From contig DAHXNH010000311.1 of NCBI GenBank assembly GCA_027365485.1, forward strand, positions 1 through 39,666: a stretch of DNA of 39,666 bases, in the 5' to 3' direction. Of this stretch, positions 30,485-39,666 are shown piece after piece. Made by a program: the position numbers and the translations under genes. The notes under the pieces were generated by a model that saw only the letters and a list, made by a program, of their open reading frames with translations, ran no database searches and was not told the origin of the DNA. The stretch is from Clostridiales bacterium (GTDB taxonomy: Bacteria > Bacillota > Sulfobacillia > Sulfobacillales > Sulfobacillaceae). Within the stretch, counting starts at the first letter, position 1. Each line of letters opens with the position of its first letter.

Positions 30485-30634
30485 GGGGTTCTTTCCACGC
30501 ACTCGACAATCGCGATGATCCTAAGCTAAGGTGTTGGCAGCAATAATGGTCGATGGCCGCTACGCTTTTTCTCACCAGTCATTGCCCATCATCCGGCCCG
30601 TTACCCAGGGCACCACTTTTGGAGGAGGTCTACC

Positions 30635-31084
30635 GTGCGAAAATTTGCCTGGATCAATGCGTACCGTCACTTGGAAAATGACATGGCACTCCCGGTGCGA
30701 ACCACGGAAGGTTCAGCGGGATATGATCTAGCGTCCGCCGAATCATTAACCATCGCTGCTGGTCAAACCCTTTTGGTCCCTACCGGACTCAAAGTGTACA
30801 TGGAACCGACGGATGTCCTTCTGATCATCATTCGCAGTTCGCTAGCCGTTAAAAACCACCTCGTGCTCGCCAACCAAGTCGGGGTGATCGACCGGGACTA
30901 CGTCGACAATGACAGCAATGAAGGTCACATTATGGTTCCCATACTCAACTTAGCCCAATCTGCAGTGGCAATCGAACGAGGTCAAAGAGTCGCCCAAGCG
31001 ATTTTTGTCAGCTATCAGCTAACGGATGACGACCAAGCTCGGGGTCAGCGTTACGGCGGATTCGGCAGCACTGATCCCACTTAA
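30635..31084 (+). CDS. dut: dUTP diphosphatase (trimeric type)
   Basis: Hydrolyses dUTP to dUMP, keeping uracil out of DNA and feeding thymidylate synthesis. The 149 residues contain all five motifs: 1 GSAGYDLAS, 2 IRSSLAVKN, 3 VGVIDRDYVDN with the following NEGHI, 4 RGQRVAQAIF and 5 RYGGFGST. The NEGHI variant after motif 3 is typical of a Bacillota and phage subgroup, so the gene may be of phage origin, although no other phage gene is near. It starts at GTG with GGAGGAGG six bases upstream. A 15-bp palindrome CCCACTT-A-AAGTGGG covers the stop codon. Confidence 0.95.
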   Translation: MRKFAWINAYRHLENDMALPVRTTEGSAGYDLASAESLTIAAGQTLLVPTGLKVYMEPTDVLLIIIRSSLAVKNHLVLANQVGVIDRDYVDNDSNEGHIMVPILNLAQSAVAIERGQRVAQAIFVSYQLTDDDQARGQRYGGFGSTDPT

Positions 31085-31297
31085 AGTGGGTCGGCGATGC
31101 CTGCGATGCTTGCGAATACTCGAAAAGAGAGTGTCACCCGACCGCAACCACACCCAGTCCGCTTGAGCGGTCGCTGAAGCCTCAATATGGAGCAGTATTC
31201 ACCAATATGAGACCCGTGGCCGACTGCTTCACGCCTGTCTTGGGCGGTCTGCCACGGCCCTTCTTTTCCCAGGTCCCTCATTCAATCCAGAGAACTC

Positions 31298-31314
31298 ACA
31301 CTCAAAGCGAGTGT
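31298..31314 (+). promoter_or_regulatory. Inverted repeat ahead of amtB
   Basis: ACACTC-AAAGC-GAGTGT, a perfect 6-bp stem, ends 13 bases before the amtB ATG. It may be an mRNA hairpin near a weak ribosome site or an operator. No clear promoter is visible in the 240-bp spacer. Confidence 0.4.
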
Positions 31315-31327
31315 CTGGCAAGAGACC

Positions 31328-32671
31328 ATGAATGTCAGATTTGTGATCGGGCTTGTTAATATGCTTAGTTTTGCTATACTCGTTGTAAATAACCTTACAT
31401 GGGTTCGGGCGGGAGATGAGGATTTGATTACGGCTCTAAATACTGTCTGGGTGATGTTTGCGGCTACTTTAGTGTTTTTTATGGAAGGAGGCTTCGCCCT
31501 TCTCGAAGCCGGATTAGTTCAAACGAAAAACACTGTCTCCATCGTCATGAAAGTTATGGCCGACGTTACTGTAGGCTCTTTAGTGTTTGCCGTAATTGGA
31601 TTCGGTTTGATGTACGGCGCATCGCGCAATGGTTGGTTTGGGTTCTCCGGGTTCTTTTTTCACGGGCATCCACTCTTGGTTTCGCACCTTCCCACTCCGG
31701 TGCTGTGGTTTTTTGAAATGGCGTTCGCGGTGGCTGCGGTCTCTATCGTCTCCGGAGCTGTCAGCGAGCGGATGAAGTTTTCTGCGTATCTGGTTTATGT
31801 CATCATAGGGGTCACCGCGTATTCGATTTCCGCACACTGGGTATGGAATCCCGATGGCTGGCTGAACCGGTTGGGGATGATCGATTTTGCCGGATCTTCG
31901 GTGGTGCATGCCTTTGGTGGATTTTCCGCCCTGGCCGCGGCTATTTTAGTGGGCCCCCGCATAGGTCGTTTCGCTAAAAATCCCGTAGTCTTTCGTCCAT
32001 CGAATCTGCCGTTGGCCTTCGTCGGCACGTTTATTCTATGGTTCGGCTGGTTTGGATTTAATGCTGGATCGACCCTCAGTGCCCTTTCGCCGCTTATCGG
32101 TACCATCGCGGTCAATACCATGCTGGCGGCGGCAATTGGTGGCTTGACCGCCATGCTGGTCACGCGAATCACCTCCGGGACGTATGACCCCACCATGGTC
32201 ATCAATGGAGCCCTTTCAGGCTTGGTCGCGATTACTGCGGGCTGCGCCTCGGTCACTCCTTCCGGCGCCCTATGGATTGGAGCGGCCGCGGGCGTATTGG
32301 TGGTCCTCGGCACCTCAATGCTTAACCGTCTTAAGGTGGATGATCCGGTCGGCGCTGCCCCGGTCCACGCGGCTAACGGCATGTTCGGCACGATTGCGGT
32401 CGGCCTATTCGCAGCTCACGGTGGCCTGTTTTACGGCGGAGGGGCACGACTGCTAGGCGTACAAAGCCTGGGCACATTCACCATCTCGGCCTGGGGCTTT
32501 GGCGTTACTGCCTTGGCGCTTGGCATCATGCGCTGGTGTGGGTTTCTACGAGTCTCGGCGACTGACGAGTCCGACGGACTGGACATCCGCATACATGGAC
32601 ACCGCGCCTACCAACACTACGATCCAGACCTTCCAGAGGAAGGGAATCCATCCACGGACGTTGCGCGATAA
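31328..32671 (+). CDS. amtB: Ammonium transporter (Amt/MEP/Rh family)
   Basis: A 447-residue membrane channel with about eleven helices that conducts ammonia or ammonium. The family start is EGGFALLEAGLVQTKN, and the twin histidines of the pore lie in SSVVHAFGG (H194) and APVHAANGMFG (H347). TLILWFGWFGFNAGS-like FILWFGWFGFNAGST is diagnostic. An N-terminal helix followed by WVRAGDED may be a cleaved signal or the first membrane segment. The ribosome site is weak (AAGAGA). Usually a PII gene (glnK) sits beside amtB; none is here. The cytosolic tail is rich in acidic residues. Confidence 0.96.
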   Translation: MNVRFVIGLVNMLSFAILVVNNLTWVRAGDEDLITALNTVWVMFAATLVFFMEGGFALLEAGLVQTKNTVSIVMKVMADVTVGSLVFAVIGFGLMYGASRNGWFGFSGFFFHGHPLLVSHLPTPVLWFFEMAFAVAAVSIVSGAVSERMKFSAYLVYVIIGVTAYSISAHWVWNPDGWLNRLGMIDFAGSSVVHAFGGFSALAAAILVGPRIGRFAKNPVVFRPSNLPLAFVGTFILWFGWFGFNAGSTLSALSPLIGTIAVNTMLAAAIGGLTAMLVTRITSGTYDPTMVINGALSGLVAITAGCASVTPSGALWIGAAAGVLVVLGTSMLNRLKVDDPVGAAPVHAANGMFGTIAVGLFAAHGGLFYGGGARLLGVQSLGTFTISAWGFGVTALALGIMRWCGFLRVSATDESDGLDIRIHGHRAYQHYDPDLPEEGNPSTDVAR

Positions 32672-33221
32672 GGCCAAGCCCGTTTGCGCACCCAAAGGCT
32701 TCGAAAGCAATGCGCTGCGGACGGGCTTGGTCTCGCCATGAAGGCAGGCTGAAGACGACAGCGTTCGGCTCATGGCAAGTCGCCGTCCGCTCTCCGTTCC
32801 CTAGATCACTTGCGGCCAATCACACCGACCCGAAGATCCTGACGCCAGATCAGGGCAATTCTAACCAACCTTTCAAATCTTTTCGACCGGCCCGCTTGAC
32901 CAAACGAACCTCCCGTCCTAAGCGGGCCATGTCCGATCTCAGGAAGTCCTGTGGGTCATATCCACCCGGCCAACGCCGTTGGTGGATTCCGAAACAGGCG
33001 AAGCCACTGCCCGCGGATCTGAGCCAGGAAATTCGATCAGTTGCCACCTACTATCCGCAACGACGGGCTCAGTCGTCCGGATAGATCCCCAAACGATTAA
33101 AGCGCCGTCGCTTAATCCAATGCTGAGATCCCGGCAAGAAGGACGAACGCTTCGGGAGTCAATCCATTAAATAAGGTGGCGTTTAACCACGAGCGGCCTG
33201 CCCAATCCCCGCCAGCCTCGA
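32672..33221. other. Gap with a long hairpin and possible decayed coding pieces
   Basis: Just after amtB a long-range hairpin joins CCAAGCCCGT (32674-32683) to ACGGGCTTGG (32721-32730), with TGCGC inside each arm; no T-run follows, so it is not a standard terminator. Further on, the minus strand holds short protein-like pieces in different frames, such as WLNATLFNGLTPEAFVLL (about 33115-33205), HWIKRRRFNRLGIYPDD (about 33081-33131) and a 65-codon frame at 32850-33047. No intact gene is supported. It may be a broken gene that I cannot name. Confidence 0.4.
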
Positions 33222-34238
33222 TCAGGCGAAAGAATGCAAGTGACCCACACCCCAATAGCCCGCGATGCTAACCAACAGAGCCAGACCCCAGACAATAGTA
33301 AACAACCACTGACTCTTGCTCGGTATGACCCGGTATTCGGGTCGATGCTGCTTGGGCTCTCGAATCATCGAAACCACAATGAGCGCGACGATAAAGATGG
33401 TCAGGGGGTCGAAGGTGAGTCGATTATCCAGTGGATTGTAAAAGAGGACTATTAACACTCCGACCATACCGGGAATCCATGCCTTCCATTGCCAAAATCC
33501 TACAGTACGCCCTCCGTCTAGCGGCAGGACCGGCATCAAATTGAAGACATGGAGGAGAAATCCCATTTCGGCAATCGCATAAAAGATGGAGTCGTGGGTC
33601 AACGTAGCTATCAGTAACGCAACTAATGTCGCGCCGATCCCGAATAATGGCCCCATAATTCCGATAAAGGCTTCATCTCCGGCATTTTGCGGATATTTCT
33701 TCAAACGAATGAATGCCCCCAGAAATGGAATGAACACCGGAAGACTAGCCGGAATCCCTTTGATCCGATTCGCCACGACATGGCCAGATTCGTGCACCGC
33801 TATCAGAGCGACCAAACCGGCAGCAAACGCCCAGCCAAATGCGATGCCGTACACCAACAAGGTCAGGACCACGGATCCAAAAGACAGCACCAGTTTAAAT
33901 TTGACCAAGACGCCCAGCACCACGGTCCATATCCTGCGCAAACTAAATCGTCCGCCGAGCGAACGCGTTGCGGGCGGACTATATTTGATCTCCGCATCTC
34001 CAATAGAAAGCACAATGGGGCGCGAGTCCTTAGGTCCGCGATCGATAAAGATGTGTTGAATCCGATCCCGATCTTCAGCAGACAGCGATCCAAAGAGATA
34101 CTCAGACTCCGCCAACTGTCCGCGAATTTCCCAGCTGCCCGGCAAAGACATGGACAGTGGGATGGAACGCGTCAACCAGCGCCAATGAGGATCTTCCTGG
34201 GACAGAGGCCGCCACGATTCTTCCGCCCATACCGGCAT
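33222..34238 (-). CDS. M50-family (site-2 protease type) membrane metallopeptidase
   Basis: The 338-residue protein has an N-terminal cytosolic part of about 100 residues, then five to six membrane segments. The zinc site is HESGH (H149, E150, H153) and the third ligand is in NLMPVLPLDGGR (D241), the classic S2P/M50 arrangement. Members cut membrane-bound regulators or act in sporulation and stress control. The soluble N-terminal region, WRPLSQEDPHWRW to about residue 90, is not a domain I recognise. I chose ATG 34238 (AAAGGGTGA ahead) over 34283. It stands alone, so its substrate is unknown. Confidence 0.92.
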   Translation of the reverse strand: MPVWAEESWRPLSQEDPHWRWLTRSIPLSMSLPGSWEIRGQLAESEYLFGSLSAEDRDRIQHIFIDRGPKDSRPIVLSIGDAEIKYSPPATRSLGGRFSLRRIWTVVLGVLVKFKLVLSFGSVVLTLLVYGIAFGWAFAAGLVALIAVHESGHVVANRIKGIPASLPVFIPFLGAFIRLKKYPQNAGDEAFIGIMGPLFGIGATLVALLIATLTHDSIFYAIAEMGFLLHVFNLMPVLPLDGGRTVGFWQWKAWIPGMVGVLIVLFYNPLDNRLTFDPLTIFIVALIVVSMIREPKQHRPEYRVIPSKSQWLFTIVWGLALLVSIAGYWGVGHLHSFA

Positions 34239-34406
34239 TTCTTGCTCACCCTTTCGCTGCCTTGTGGTCTTGTAACCAACCACCCACCTACCGCAACATC
34301 ATCGTTCTTTCCTCACTACAGCCTATCACAGGCGAAGTTCGAAAACGCCATTCCAATCGACCATTCGCCTTTTTTTGACGAAGGCACCCACGGCTTCAAC
34401 CTCGGG

Positions 34407-34466
34407 TCAGAAACGTTTGCGTCGCCTGATCCGGTTCACCTCATTCAAAGGAATCTTGATCCGCAC
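34407..34466 (-). CDS. Very short basic ORF (19 aa) behind the ArsR gene
   Basis: A GTG at 34466 follows GGGAGGGGG at four to five bases, one of the strongest ribosome sites seen, and the frame closes after 19 codons with a basic product ending IRRRKRF. It lies 38 bp downstream of the ArsR-type regulator in the same direction. It may be a leader peptide, a microprotein or chance. I do not recognise it. Confidence 0.2.
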   Translation of the reverse strand: MRIKIPLNEVNRIRRRKRF

Positions 34467-34504
34467 TGAACCCCCTCCCGAGAATCCTCTACCCGCTCAT
34501 TTAG

Positions 34505-35620
34505 CTACGTTCCAATGTCGCCCAACAACAGGGCTCTTCCCCGGTCCCAGACCGCGTCGAGACGGTCGCGGTTTAACGAATAGTAGTAACGGCGGCCCTT
34601 CTTTTCCATCGCCACTAAGTCCGCCTCGAACAAAAAGCTCATCTGATAAGAAATGGCAGCTGGCGTGAGTTGCAAAGCTTGGGCCAACTCTGCCCCGTAC
34701 CATGGTTTCTGACCCAAGCGGCGAAGAATTTCGACCCGCGTCTTATCGCTCAACAAGCGAAGAAGGCCCTGCAACTCGCGATCCGGGTCCAGAGTTTCGG
34801 TGGCCGTGGACACTTCCGATCCCAAAATCGCCCAGTGGATTGGCGGCGATTCGTTAAGCACCAGATACACCCATTGCCCAATCAGTGGACTCACATGCAC
34901 CACTACCGTTCCATCAAAGCGTTGCGGGTCAAGCTTGAGCGCTTTGCTAAGAAACCGAGACGGATCAGAACGATACCTCTGCTCAAACGACTCCAACGCT
35001 CGCCTGCCTAGTTGCGCGAGGCTCTCTTCGGCGGAATGATAGCAGTCCTGGTAGACTCGGCGTAAAGTGAAAACCAAACGGTGCTGGGTTTCTTCGGCGT
35101 GCAGCAGGTAGTCTTTCATTCTGAACTGGCCCGGACCCGTCCAGTATCGCTCGACATAGGCGATGGCTTCAGCGATTGATGCTTCCCCCTCACTTTGTTC
35201 TAAGATTTCTTTCATTTGGTCGCCGTTGCTAGATCCGGGCATAGCTTTTGCCAGGGCGACCAAAATGTTCGGAAGAGGAGCCTTTTCAATGGGAAAAATC
35301 ACCTCCTCGACCGTCGCCGGTTGTGGATAGGTGCTCCATACCCAGTCAAAGTAGTTGCCGTAGGGCAGATTCGCCGAATGGGCGTGTTGGAAAAACTCCT
35401 CCGTCTCCTGGCTCAGAAATCTCGACAATCCAGAACGCGAGACCTCGATCCACTCAAGATGTGCCGGGCTGACGAGGCTGTTTTCCTTAGCCACCGCGGT
35501 AGCATTGCCGAGCAACCCCATAAAGACAAAAAACTCCAACGGAGGAGAATAGGAGAATAGGTGAACAGTTCCATCCAGCCCGGGCCTTCGTCCCCAATTT
35601 TCGTCGTCTCCTGAGATCAC
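34505..35620 (-). CDS. ArsR-type transcriptional regulator with a large N-terminal domain
   Basis: A 371-residue protein. The C-terminal winged helix (about 280-360) has LRLLSDKTRVEILRRLGQ, AELAQALQLTPAAISYQMSFL and the wing KKGRRYYYSL. The N-terminal 260 residues, beginning HLFSYSPPLEFFVFMGLL, match the layout of ArsR-like regulators with a DUF5937-type sensor region, although I assign that only by pattern. No metal-binding cysteines are seen, so it is unlikely to be a metal sensor. The start is uncertain: GTG 35620 has no ribosome site. Its 5' end overlaps the head-to-head ABC gene by about 60 bp, so it probably controls that exporter. Confidence 0.82.
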   Translation of the reverse strand: MISGDDENWGRRPGLDGTVHLFSYSPPLEFFVFMGLLGNATAVAKENSLVSPAHLEWIEVSRSGLSRFLSQETEEFFQHAHSANLPYGNYFDWVWSTYPQPATVEEVIFPIEKAPLPNILVALAKAMPGSSNGDQMKEILEQSEGEASIAEAIAYVERYWTGPGQFRMKDYLLHAEETQHRLVFTLRRVYQDCYHSAEESLAQLGRRALESFEQRYRSDPSRFLSKALKLDPQRFDGTVVVHVSPLIGQWVYLVLNESPPIHWAILGSEVSTATETLDPDRELQGLLRLLSDKTRVEILRRLGQKPWYGAELAQALQLTPAAISYQMSFLFEADLVAMEKKGRRYYYSLNRDRLDAVWDRGRALLLGDIGT

Positions 35621-36344
35621 AGTCTCAGCATTAGGCTACCGCTATGCCGGCCACCCTGCTTTGCTGCGCCATCTTTCCTGCCATTTTCGTCCCAATGAAA
35701 TCACGGCTATCATTGGCCCCAGCGGCTCGGGCAAAAGCACGCTAGCGGCACTGTTGTTAGGATTAGTCCAGGCCGACCGGGGCCAAATTCTCATAGATGG
35801 CACGGATCTCAATGCTATCGACCTTGCCTATTGGCGATCCCGCATTGGCTATGTGGAACCAGAGCCCTGGCTTATTCCGGGATCGCTGTCCGACAATGTA
35901 CTTTTGGGCAAAGCCAACGCTAGTCAGAAGGCCGTGCGTTCCGCGCTCTGGACCGCGGCCGCAGATGATTTCAGCGAACGCCTCCCCCAAGGACTCGAAA
36001 CTCCGGTGGAAGAAGAGGGCGTCGCCCTTTCGGGAGGACAACGCCAGCGCGTGACTCTCGCCCGCGCCCTGCTCCGCGATGCTCCAGTGCTCATTTTCGA
36101 CGAGCCCACCGCGGCACTCGATAACGACACGGAGGCCTCGGTCCTCAAACGATTAGCTCCCTGTCTTCGCACCAAGACGACGATAATCATCACTCACCGG
36201 CGGGCCGTAGTCGAGGCGGCGGATCAGGTGTTGATGTTGTACCAGGGCCACGTAAAGAGCCTTGCTCGATCAACCGCTGATTTCGATGAAGCCTGGCGCA
36301 GCATGGCAACTTGGTCCAAAACTCCGACCGGAGAGGAGATGTAG
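35561..36344 (+). CDS. ABC exporter nucleotide-binding domain, lacking a membrane domain and frame-interrupted near its start
   Basis: An exporter-type ATPase domain with A-loop Tyr in YRYAG, Walker A GPSGSGKST, signature LSGGQRQR, Walker B VLIFDEPTAALD and switch His in IITHRR. No canonical start lies between the frame's opening and the A-loop. A GTG at 35561 has AGGAGA five bases ahead and opens a 17-codon frame that ends TCC-TGA (35609-35614); a +1 shift at that point continues straight into the domain (GAG ATC ACA). TTG 35661 would lose the A-loop. The usual membrane half is absent, so this may be a truncated exporter subunit. It pairs with the next gene as a likely heterodimer. Confidence 0.7.
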
Positions 36345-36345
36345 C

Positions 36346-36915
36346 ATGGACAACGTGTCTTGGCGATCGGTGTTTCACACCAGTCTTAATTTTATTAAGG
36401 AGTCCCGGGTGCTGTTTCGCGCTTCATTGCTATTGATGAGTGCTAATCTTTGCTTTGACATCGGGCTTGCCGTCATCCAGCAATTTTTCTTTAACGATAT
36501 GACCGCTCATCGATTTTTAGAGTTAGAGCGGCTGCTGACAGCGACAAGCGTGCTTTCATTGTTCCTTGTGGCGGCAATAACCGTACAATATTACGCCCAA
36601 GCGGTAGCCGCCGCCGATGGCGGCCAACGGTTGCTCCTAGATATATTCCAGAGCACTTATCAGGCCGCCTATCACACCGTGACCGGCTTTCACTCGGCCG
36701 ATGTTGTGTCGCGCATGACCGAGGATGCGGGGCAGATGGTGCACAGTGTTCCCCTGCTATTAAACGGGGTTCTTTATCAGGTGGTGGTGACCACCACCGC
36801 CTTCACTTTGCTTTGGCGGCTAAGTCCAGGCCCAGCCCTGTTGGCTCTGGGTGCGGGTCCGATCATTTTTTCACTGGTCGAGGGTTTGATCGGCGCATTC
36901 AAAAAGATTCCGTAG
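36346..36915 (+). pseudogene. ABC exporter membrane domain, first part of a frame-interrupted gene
   Basis: The ATG follows GAGGAG at nine bases and lies one base after the previous stop. The product is the first 189 residues of an ABC exporter membrane domain, with about four membrane helices and an exporter-type loop (SADVVSRMTEDAGQMV, compare T-G-x-x-x-S-R-x-x-x-D). It stops at TAG 36913 after AAAAAG, just before the coupling helix region. The remainder continues in the -1 frame from GAT at 36906. Read through, the pair would form a normal exporter of about 590 residues. It could be a decayed gene, a sequencing error or a frameshifted product. Confidence 0.72.
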
Positions 36916-38120
36916 TAATCCGCCGCTTAGATGCTGCCTCGCAGTCAGCATGGCAAGACGGCGTGCAGCATATGGCATGGGTGCGAGTTTACGGTCTGGA
37001 AAATCGCTATCTGCAGCAATTTGACCATCGGCGGGAGCAACTCAACGCCAGAAGCGTACGGCGTGCCTGCAGTCAGTCTGCGGTCACCGAGTTGGCGGGA
37101 TTGACTCAGTCGATGGCTACCTTCGTCTCGGCTTATTTCCTGGCTGGAGGCGCTGCCAACGCTCCGATTGCGGTGGGAAAAATTATGACGTTCTTGTTTC
37201 TCATGGATCAGGTCCAACTACCATTTATTAACATGTCGAGCACGTGGGCAACGCTGCAGCAAGCCATAGGCTCGGGTCAGCGCGTTGCCAATTTCGTAGA
37301 CTCCCTGGCTCAAGGTGATTCCAACCCCACCGGGTCCAAAAAGTCGCTGGCAACTGTCCGCGCTCTGTCATCGACGACCGCCTGTTCCATCGCTCCCCCA
37401 AACGCCGACAGGCCAATGCAATTGGCCATAAGACTCAGGGCCGTCACCTGGAGTCCGATAGCGGACCGGACAACCAGGGATATGGACCCATCCCGCGCCT
37501 ATCGAACCTCTCCTCCCCTTCTCGACGGAATCAACTTAGACGTCGAGTTATCTCAGATCTTAGCTGTCATGGGGCCTAGCGGGGTTGGCAAAACGTCGCT
37601 GGCTCGTATTTTAGCGGGTCTCTACCGACCAGACGCAGGGCAGATCGATGTGTTCGGCCAAGATCTGAGCGATCTCCATTCGCCCGTTCGCAATCAAATC
37701 GCCTATTTACCGCAGGCACCTTATGTGTTTTCGGGAACGGTGCGGGATAACCTGGTGATGGCCAATCCCAAAGCATCGGAGACTGCCATCGCCGACGCGG
37801 TCCGACTAGCAGCCTGCGATGAATTCATCCAAAGCCTCCCTCTTGGCTATGACACCCCGGTTGGCGAAGGCGGAGTCGCTCTCTCCGGAGGCCAACGGCA
37901 ACGCCTTGCCATCGCCCGCGTAATCTTGTCCGAGCGCCCCATCCTCATTCTCGACGAACCCAGTGCGGCCTTAGATGCAACTAGTGAAGAGCACCTGGCC
38001 AAATCCTTGACTAACTTGCGCAACCGATGCGCTCTGGTGGTCATCAGCCATCACTCAGCGCTTATAGAGCGGGCGGATCGAGTCATGCAATTGCAAAACG
38101 TCCACTTAACTGAGGTGTGA
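36906..38120 (+). pseudogene. ABC exporter, second part (rest of membrane domain and ATPase domain)
   Basis: Continues the interrupted gene in another frame: membrane residues RRLDAASQSAWQDGVQHMAWVRVYGLE, then helices around TQSMATFVSAYFLAGG and a linker rich in Ser/Thr. The ATPase domain follows with Walker A GPSGVGKTSL, signature LSGGQRQRL, Walker B ILILDEPSAALD and switch His in VISHHS. All catalytic motifs are intact, which argues for recent interruption or active recoding. A start within this frame would begin inside the membrane domain without a ribosome site. A weak hairpin with a T-run follows the stop. Confidence 0.75.
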
Positions 38121-38153: not shown

Positions 38154-38412
38154 GACAATTCGGTCGTGCGACACACCATTGCTGGCGGCTAGAAACAACT
38201 GGCATCAGATCAGCGACGGCCGGCCGATGTCGGCCTGGTCAGCCAACGACTCAGCCTGTTTTGCGGCGCCGTCTACCGAATGCCTCTACGAGGTCTTTGC
38301 CCTGCCTTTGGCAGCGTCTAACCAACCAGACGCATCTCTCCGCTGCAAAATCGACGAAGAGAGGCACTGGCGGACTGATCCGGAGTTCCTCTCTTCTCAT
38401 TAAGACCACACC

Positions 38413-39666
38413 TTAGACTTCCCCCGAGGCCACCTGAATGCTCAGTCCCCCTCCGGTTTCTCTACCCCAGATGAGCCAGGCCGCTGCGCCCAGCGTTCCC
38501 ACCAGCCACACCCCGGCATTAAAGAGAATGTAGTGAGACGGCGACAAGTGCGCCGTGATGTAAATAGCGGGAATATACAGTCCGATGGAAATAAATCGGG
38601 CCACCGCCGTTAGGGTCCCACGGTGAAGTGTGGGCCAAACCTCCGCTTTGACGGTATCTTCAGTGAGGTAGCACAAAGAGTTGACTCCAGCGAGAATGAC
38701 CAGAAGAATCCAAAAGAGCGTCATGTCATGTTGCCAAGCTTTGGCGGTCAGACCGACGATAGTCGTCATGATGAAGGTGCTAAGGAAACTCCAGAACAGA
38801 AACTTCTTGCGCGAGATCGCATCGGCGAACAATCCAAGAAATCCAATGACAAAGCCGGCTCCCTCAAAAACCGCAAGGATCGTTGGCTGAAGATGAGGAA
38901 AGAATGCATAAGCCAAAGCGTAGGCCATCAGCCCGAAGCCGATGGTGTTCGCGGCCGCCACGATAATCATTACCGTCATAGTAAACACAGAATAAGCGGC
39001 GCTCACTTTCCGACCTACCGCGGCGGAAGTGGAAGAATCGAGGACTTCTTTCATAATAGCCCCCGCGTGAACTTCTGGGCCGAAGTACGATTTCACGGTT
39101 TTCTCAAGGTCTTGGCTGCGGCCTTTTTTTTGCAGCCACAAAAACGACTCGGGCATGGTGATCCTGGTGGCAAACAGAATGGCGACCACTATCAGGACGG
39201 CGGCCGCCACCACGTCCCGCTGGGCAGCGACTAACGACTTTGTCCCCAGGGAAGCCGTCGTCAGAGCCACGATAGCCAAAATGGTGCCTCCAAGATTGAT
39301 GCCGTTAATAATCATCATCGTAGCCTTTCCTCGGTGTTTTCGCGGCATGAGCTCATGACTCGCCACCATGATTGAGTTCATTTCTCCGCCGCCGGCCATA
39401 AGCATCAGGGCGAGAGAGACGAGAATCACGATATAACTCGACCCGAAGAAGAGCACGATGCCTCCGATGGCATACAAGACCAAAGTCGCGTAAAGCGTCA
39501 CTTTCCGCCCATATTTATCGGAGAACGGGCCCGCCAAAATAATCCCGACGATGAGCCAAATGGGTGCCCAGGCCAATAGCAATTCGCCAAGGGCCTTAGG
39601 CATGGACACCCAGTAGATGGCGATGGAGGCCAAGGCGAAGACGTAGGACTCGAGAGCCAAACCCAA
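38413..39666 (-). CDS. MFS transporter, N-terminus cut by the window edge
   Basis: At least 417 residues with about eleven visible membrane helices of the major facilitator superfamily. The loop between helices 2 and 3 has the signature GPFSDKYGRKVTL, and a second-half equivalent GLFADAISRKKFL follows; the ESFLWLQKKGR segment resembles the sugar/metabolite (SP or AAHS-like) branch. The frame runs to the window end, and the first helix begins at once, so roughly 15-25 residues are missing. The substrate cannot be read. It faces the ABC exporter genes tail to tail, with about 290 bp between that hold nothing else I can name. Confidence 0.9.
   Translation of the reverse strand: MGLALESYVFALASIAIYWVSMPKALGELLLAWAPIWLIVGIILAGPFSDKYGRKVTLYATLVLYAIGGIVLFFGSSYIVILVSLALMLMAGGGEMNSIMVASHELMPRKHRGKATMMIINGINLGGTILAIVALTTASLGTKSLVAAQRDVVAAAVLIVVAILFATRITMPESFLWLQKKGRSQDLEKTVKSYFGPEVHAGAIMKEVLDSSTSAAVGRKVSAAYSVFTMTVMIIVAAANTIGFGLMAYALAYAFFPHLQPTILAVFEGAGFVIGFLGLFADAISRKKFLFWSFLSTFIMTTIVGLTAKAWQHDMTLFWILLVILAGVNSLCYLTEDTVKAEVWPTLHRGTLTAVARFISIGLYIPAIYITAHLSPSHYILFNAGVWLVGTLGAAAWLIWGRETGGGLSIQVASGEV

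Follow-up and report, generated by a model that had tools for sequence, protein, structure and literature searches.

Whether a pair of ABC exporter genes interrupted in opposite senses is read through by frameshifting, or is simply falling apart, is the question raised by the present locus. The stretch of DNA analysed here, referred to as the window (39,666 nucleotides), is a single contig (C176) of a draft genome in 440 contigs. A preliminary description had proposed a +1 shift in the first gene and a -1 shift in the second, leaving programmed recoding, homopolymer phase change and recent decay as options. The present analysis suggests that the operon is very probably being lost through ordinary deletion and small indels, recoding not being supported.

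Re-reading of the sequence returned the letters as described, namely GTG at 35561-35563, 17 codons closed by TGA at 35612-35614, and TAG at 36913. The ATPase frame at 35565-36344 indeed lacks a usual start, with no ATG, GTG or TTG until TTG 35661, shortly upstream of the Walker A motif. No second copy of the locus was found elsewhere in the assembly, where the missing membrane domain described below was sought too. A promoter scan gave no promoter upstream of gene 1 or of the regulator, which is weak evidence. The features of the locus are as follows.

34505-35620, minus strand: ArsR-like transcription regulator (about 350 aa), oriented away from the exporter genes; matches HTH_5 and NF033788 above their cut-offs and shares an SPxxE motif near the N-terminus with homologues
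35543-35558, no strand: exact 8-bp tandem duplication (AGGAGAAT twice) at the regulator N-terminal motif
35561-35614, plus strand: 17-codon GTG open frame closed by TGA, the leader of the preliminary description; read directly from the sequence, antisense to the regulator frame, and judged not to be a gene
35565-36344, plus strand: gene 1 remnant, exporter ATPase domain and part of the linker, without membrane domain or start codon
36346-36915, plus strand: gene 2 frame A, with the ATG start and the N-terminal portion of the membrane domain, closed by TAG 36913
36862-36888, plus strand: interval of the -1 phase change in gene 2, with a run of six T inside; placed by homology (crossover scan, bracketing local HMM matches, alignment)
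36885-38120, plus strand: gene 2 frame B, with the C-terminal portion of the membrane domain followed by the ATPase domain
37900-38099, plus strand: stretch of gene 2 of which a decayed counterpart is still present in the sister species (L029 6389-6587, minus strand; 88.5% identity, one gap)

Gene 1, its supposed leader and the divergent regulator

Gene 1 carries the ATPase motifs GPSGSGKST, LSGGQRQR, LIFDEPTAALD and THR. The ATPase is its sole exporter domain, the remaining domain matches being to generic P-loop models. Against a profile built from 40 homologous frames of at least 550 aa, which are uninterrupted by construction of the set, it matches positions 373-597 of 658, and it matches the CydD (TIGR02857) profile from position 317 on. 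The membrane domain of about 300 residues present in full-length relatives is absent, and the DNA upstream of gene 1 is the coding region of the divergent regulator, not a membrane domain. Both genes are full length in each of the two tandem homologue pairs examined (641/722 and 648/658 aa). The absence of this domain is, like the phase change of gene 2 described below, apparent from the sequence itself. The term "ABC exporter pair" thus fits gene 2 only, gene 1 being entirely devoid of a membrane domain.

The layout of gene 1 had been likened to that of prfB, and the likeness extends to a short open frame ending in TGA with a long frame at +1. The resemblance ends there, as the region 35586-35614 has neither a Shine-Dalgarno-like stimulator such as AGGGGG nor CTT-TGA-C, and the +1 frame does not hold a complete protein. 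The genome's own prfB (L091, G000:C11, minus strand, about 1533) does have the signal, reading AGGGGG-TCT-CTTTGAC at the shift site, which makes it an internal control. The stretch before TGA 35612 reads CTTCGTCCCCAATTTTCGTCGTCTCC; its codon differs from that of prfB, and the stop is followed by G, not C. Furthermore, the linker homology in the ATPase frame starts upstream of TGA 35612 (profile match from residue 6, base 35580), and the 17-codon frame is therefore not a natural lead-in. With the membrane domain of gene 1 missing, shifting by +1 at TGA 35612 would in any case yield an ATPase carrying a 17-residue tag, and no exporter.

The letters of the "strong ribosome site" ascribed to this frame are present, but they are antisense to codons by which the divergent ArsR-like gene encodes a conserved Ser-Pro motif. 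SPxxE (mostly YSPxxE) occurs near the N-terminus in all nine of the nine aligned full-length regulator homologues, and the window regulator has YSPPLE, encoded on the minus strand by the bases carrying GGAGGAGAATA on the plus strand. The plus-strand site is made up by the 8-bp tandem repeat, which adjoins and overlaps the motif; GGAGG lies 15 bases away from GTG 35561, and normal spacing is obtained only from the second copy of the repeat. The antisense strand of a neighbouring gene can hence mimic both a ribosome site and an open frame, which calls for caution.

The 39.7 kb contain two exact tandem repeats whose unit measures 8-12 bases, 35543-35558 being one of them. The frame of the regulator body (...YSPPLEFF...) and that opened by ATG 35574 (minus strand, MELFTYSP...) are set apart by this repeat, and their meeting in it suggests a frame-breaking duplication, by which the regulator is probably broken at its N-terminus. 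The sole canonical in-frame start of the regulator, GTG 35620, sits within the antisense of the gene 1 ATPase frame.

Position and nature of the break in gene 2

The stop of gene 2 at TAG 36913 and the restoration of the membrane and ATPase parts in the -1 frame stand as first described; the shift at TTC-AAA-AAG does not, as the phase change lies further upstream. Each possible -1 crossover was scored against homologues, and a plateau of 296.7-296.8 bits was obtained with the last frame-A base at 36867-36885 and dips of up to 2.2 bits within. A crossover at the AAAAAG run scored 288.4 bits, 8.3 bits below the best position. With the five nearest homologues only, the best crossover gave 204.2 bits as compared to 199.4 at the A run (4.8 bits worse). 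Of two local HMM matches obtained with no crossover assumed, the one in frame A extends to 36876 and the one in frame B begins at 36885. The crossover scan puts the phase change at about 36867-36888, close to the run of six T; the proposed AAAAAG slip site follows some 15-40 bases downstream. The -1 frame is open from 36813 or earlier to 38120.

The ATPase frame of gene 2 keeps its motifs (GPSGVGKTS, LSGGQRQR, LILDEPSAALD and SHH) and contains no nonsense codons, so that the Walker and signature motifs of both genes are intact, as had been claimed. Both halves of the PF00664 membrane domain are found as fragments, each below the curated cut-off. The gene ends about 25 residues short of most homologues, an end at which half-exporters vary. 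Its matches among plasmid records are to generic ABC transporters alone, at about 31-34% identity.

At 37340-37510 of the window, gene 2 has an extended linker between its domains and, past the first ATPase strand, an insertion. This in-frame insertion, which precedes Walker A, was considered as a lesion and rejected, since still longer ones occupy the corresponding place in the nearest homologues (family f35 of the class).

Programmed frameshifting, by +1 at TCC-TGA in gene 1 and -1 at TTC-AAA-AAG in gene 2, would agree with the open downstream frames and the intact motifs in both genes. It is nevertheless highly improbable. To the missing prfB-like signal and membrane domain in gene 1 is added, in gene 2, the lower score of the AAAAAG crossover, and the heptamer just upstream of the stop is C-AAA-AAG, not A-AAA-AAG; it does not lie at the protein phase change, as the X-XXY-YYZ heptamer of dnaX/IS-type -1 frameshifting would. 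No stimulatory stem-loop was detected at 36907-36970, which folds like its shuffles (z -0.21), and RNA folding around both sites was no better than that of shuffles (z -0.21, 0.07 and -0.09). Neither site is conserved in any relative compared, since the congener G001 has lost the locus and the aligned distant homologues have plain frames. The recoding option of the preliminary description is thereby disfavoured; if true, it would make an unusual double case within one operon, and the evidence points elsewhere. It is equally hard to credit a reading in which the gene 1 ATPase acts by itself as a partner, its translation beginning at a non-canonical start or depending on a weak shift, while low-level frameshifting supplies the product of gene 2.

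Loss of the locus in a sister species

The sister-species comparison involves one congener, G001. Window 30493-34619 aligns to its contig C95 at 94-96% and 38375-39666 to its contig C194, the flanks being collinear at 95.7% (33167-34619) and 95.2% (38375-39666). Of the ArsR/ABC region between them, G001 retains on this alignment only 115 bases from the 3' end of the regulator gene and a 200-base piece of gene 2, besides 233 bases of the downstream spacer. The common flanks suggest that the remnants on the two unjoined contigs face each other across one gap.

Mobile elements are found around these remnants, transposases being named by reading of the sequence, not by family search. On C194 (L029 3420-5786, minus strand), the spacer downstream of the gene 2 remnant, beside the conserved MFS gene, holds a 788-aa open frame, DDE-type transposase-like, which is missing from the window (site near 38375). 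Fragments of another transposase-like frame lie close to the remnants. On C95 about 370 additional bases (L079 3921-4288) are present at the place matching window 33167-33174, and the 8-base overlap of the flanking alignments there resembles the target-site duplication of a small mobile element.

In the 200-base remnant of gene 2, differences by codon position are 8/8/6, close to the 9/8/8 of the intergenic spacer, as compared to the constraint pattern of the neighbouring genes (9/1/48 for MFS and 8/5/41 for the ammonium transporter AmtB). Neutrality of the window copy was considered on this pairwise pattern and rejected, as most of the changes that can be polarised against the family fall on the sister branch; where both copies differ, the window copy keeps the family residue oftener. 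The sister remnant alone is neutral-looking. Prolonged neutrality of the window copy is excluded by the gene 2 ATPase, which has no nonsense codon and keeps its motifs and, more often than the sister, the family residues. Judged from these sequence patterns, decay looks recent in the window copy, and in the sister either older or more rapid.

An assembly or sequencing error at a homopolymer could also account for the break in gene 2, gene 1 alone being truly broken or misassembled too. The phase-change interval includes the run of six T, where, and not in the A run, gene 2 may have taken a homopolymer indel, whether real or an artefact of assembly. The genome is moreover a draft of many contigs, and gene 2 otherwise appears freshly constrained. 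This explanation is considered unlikely. AmtB, dUTPase, peptidase M50 and MFS align with the congener without a frame-breaking gap (one 3-base gap in 4.1 kb), and errors are therefore not common in this region. Moreover, base-calling cannot explain the loss of a whole membrane domain, so that gene 1 is not rescued, and the locus has been lost independently in the congener.

Phase variation, in which slipped-strand changes at the T run of gene 2 and at the 8-bp repeat of the regulator toggle the genes, has in its favour the presence of a homopolymer and of a tandem repeat at, or close to, two of the three breaks. For contingency loci, however, a run of six T and a repeat of two units are short, the membrane-domain loss of gene 1 is irreversible, and the sister has deleted nearly the whole locus; there is accordingly little reason to expect it here.

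Decay of the operon remains the best explanation. The ancestral state would have been an ArsR-type regulator divergent from two adjacent type I (CydCD/MsbA-like) half-exporter genes, each with a membrane domain and an ATPase. A deletion may then have joined the start region of the regulator to the linker of gene 1, taking away the intergenic region and, from gene 1, both start and membrane domain. Gene 2 carries a -1 frame break within the membrane domain, and the regulator has probably acquired an 8-bp tandem duplication in its N-terminal motif; the sister species would have undergone further deletion and acquired insertion sequences. We infer deletion as the cause in gene 1, the order of events, the ancestral arrangement and the regulator lesion. 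Loss of an operon that is no longer needed would be the simplest account, with no recoding step required. The "recent decay" first offered as one option among three is supported by the domain loss in gene 1, the probable regulator lesion, and the near-total deletion of the locus with insertion-sequence debris in the sister. Several independent lesions in the window, and in the sister lineage loss together with a neutral-looking remnant, are both found, as expected of a decaying operon. For a "frameshifted" transporter, a missing domain and the state of the locus in sister species deserve to be checked first.

Comparison with known exporters and frameshifted genes

For both ATPases, TIGR02857 CydD and related exporter models are the top-scoring or nearly top-scoring matches, in agreement with type I ABC exporters (CydC/CydD/MsbA-like; PF00664 and PF00005). 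They differ from these in that gene 1 lacks the membrane domain and that of gene 2 is divided over two frames. Consequently, neither gene has PF00664 followed by PF00005 in one frame, as a half-transporter does; Walker A, LSGGQ, Walker B and the H-loop are present in both. Scores lie far under the NCBIfam equivalog cut-offs (gene 1, 236 vs 435 bits for CydD; frame B, 200 vs 329 for CydC), a weak test with partial fragments, and no substrate can therefore be assigned. A search of 154 genomes of the class and a scan of genome contigs gave no close orthologue with plain frames or an undamaged membrane domain; the best membrane-domain match in the 154 genomes has about 24-25% identity, the intact copies being distant homologues only.

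Reading-frame transitions in ABC transporter genes were numerous in the GeneTack survey of prokaryotes, where the ABC transporter clusters were attributed to translational coupling between adjacent genes (PMC3711429). Singleton fs-genes were regarded there as likely to arise from indel mutation or sequencing error (PMC3711429). The clusters represent coupling between genes, whereas the present breaks lie within a domain. These assignments agree with decay of the operon, and gene loss of this kind is ordinary.
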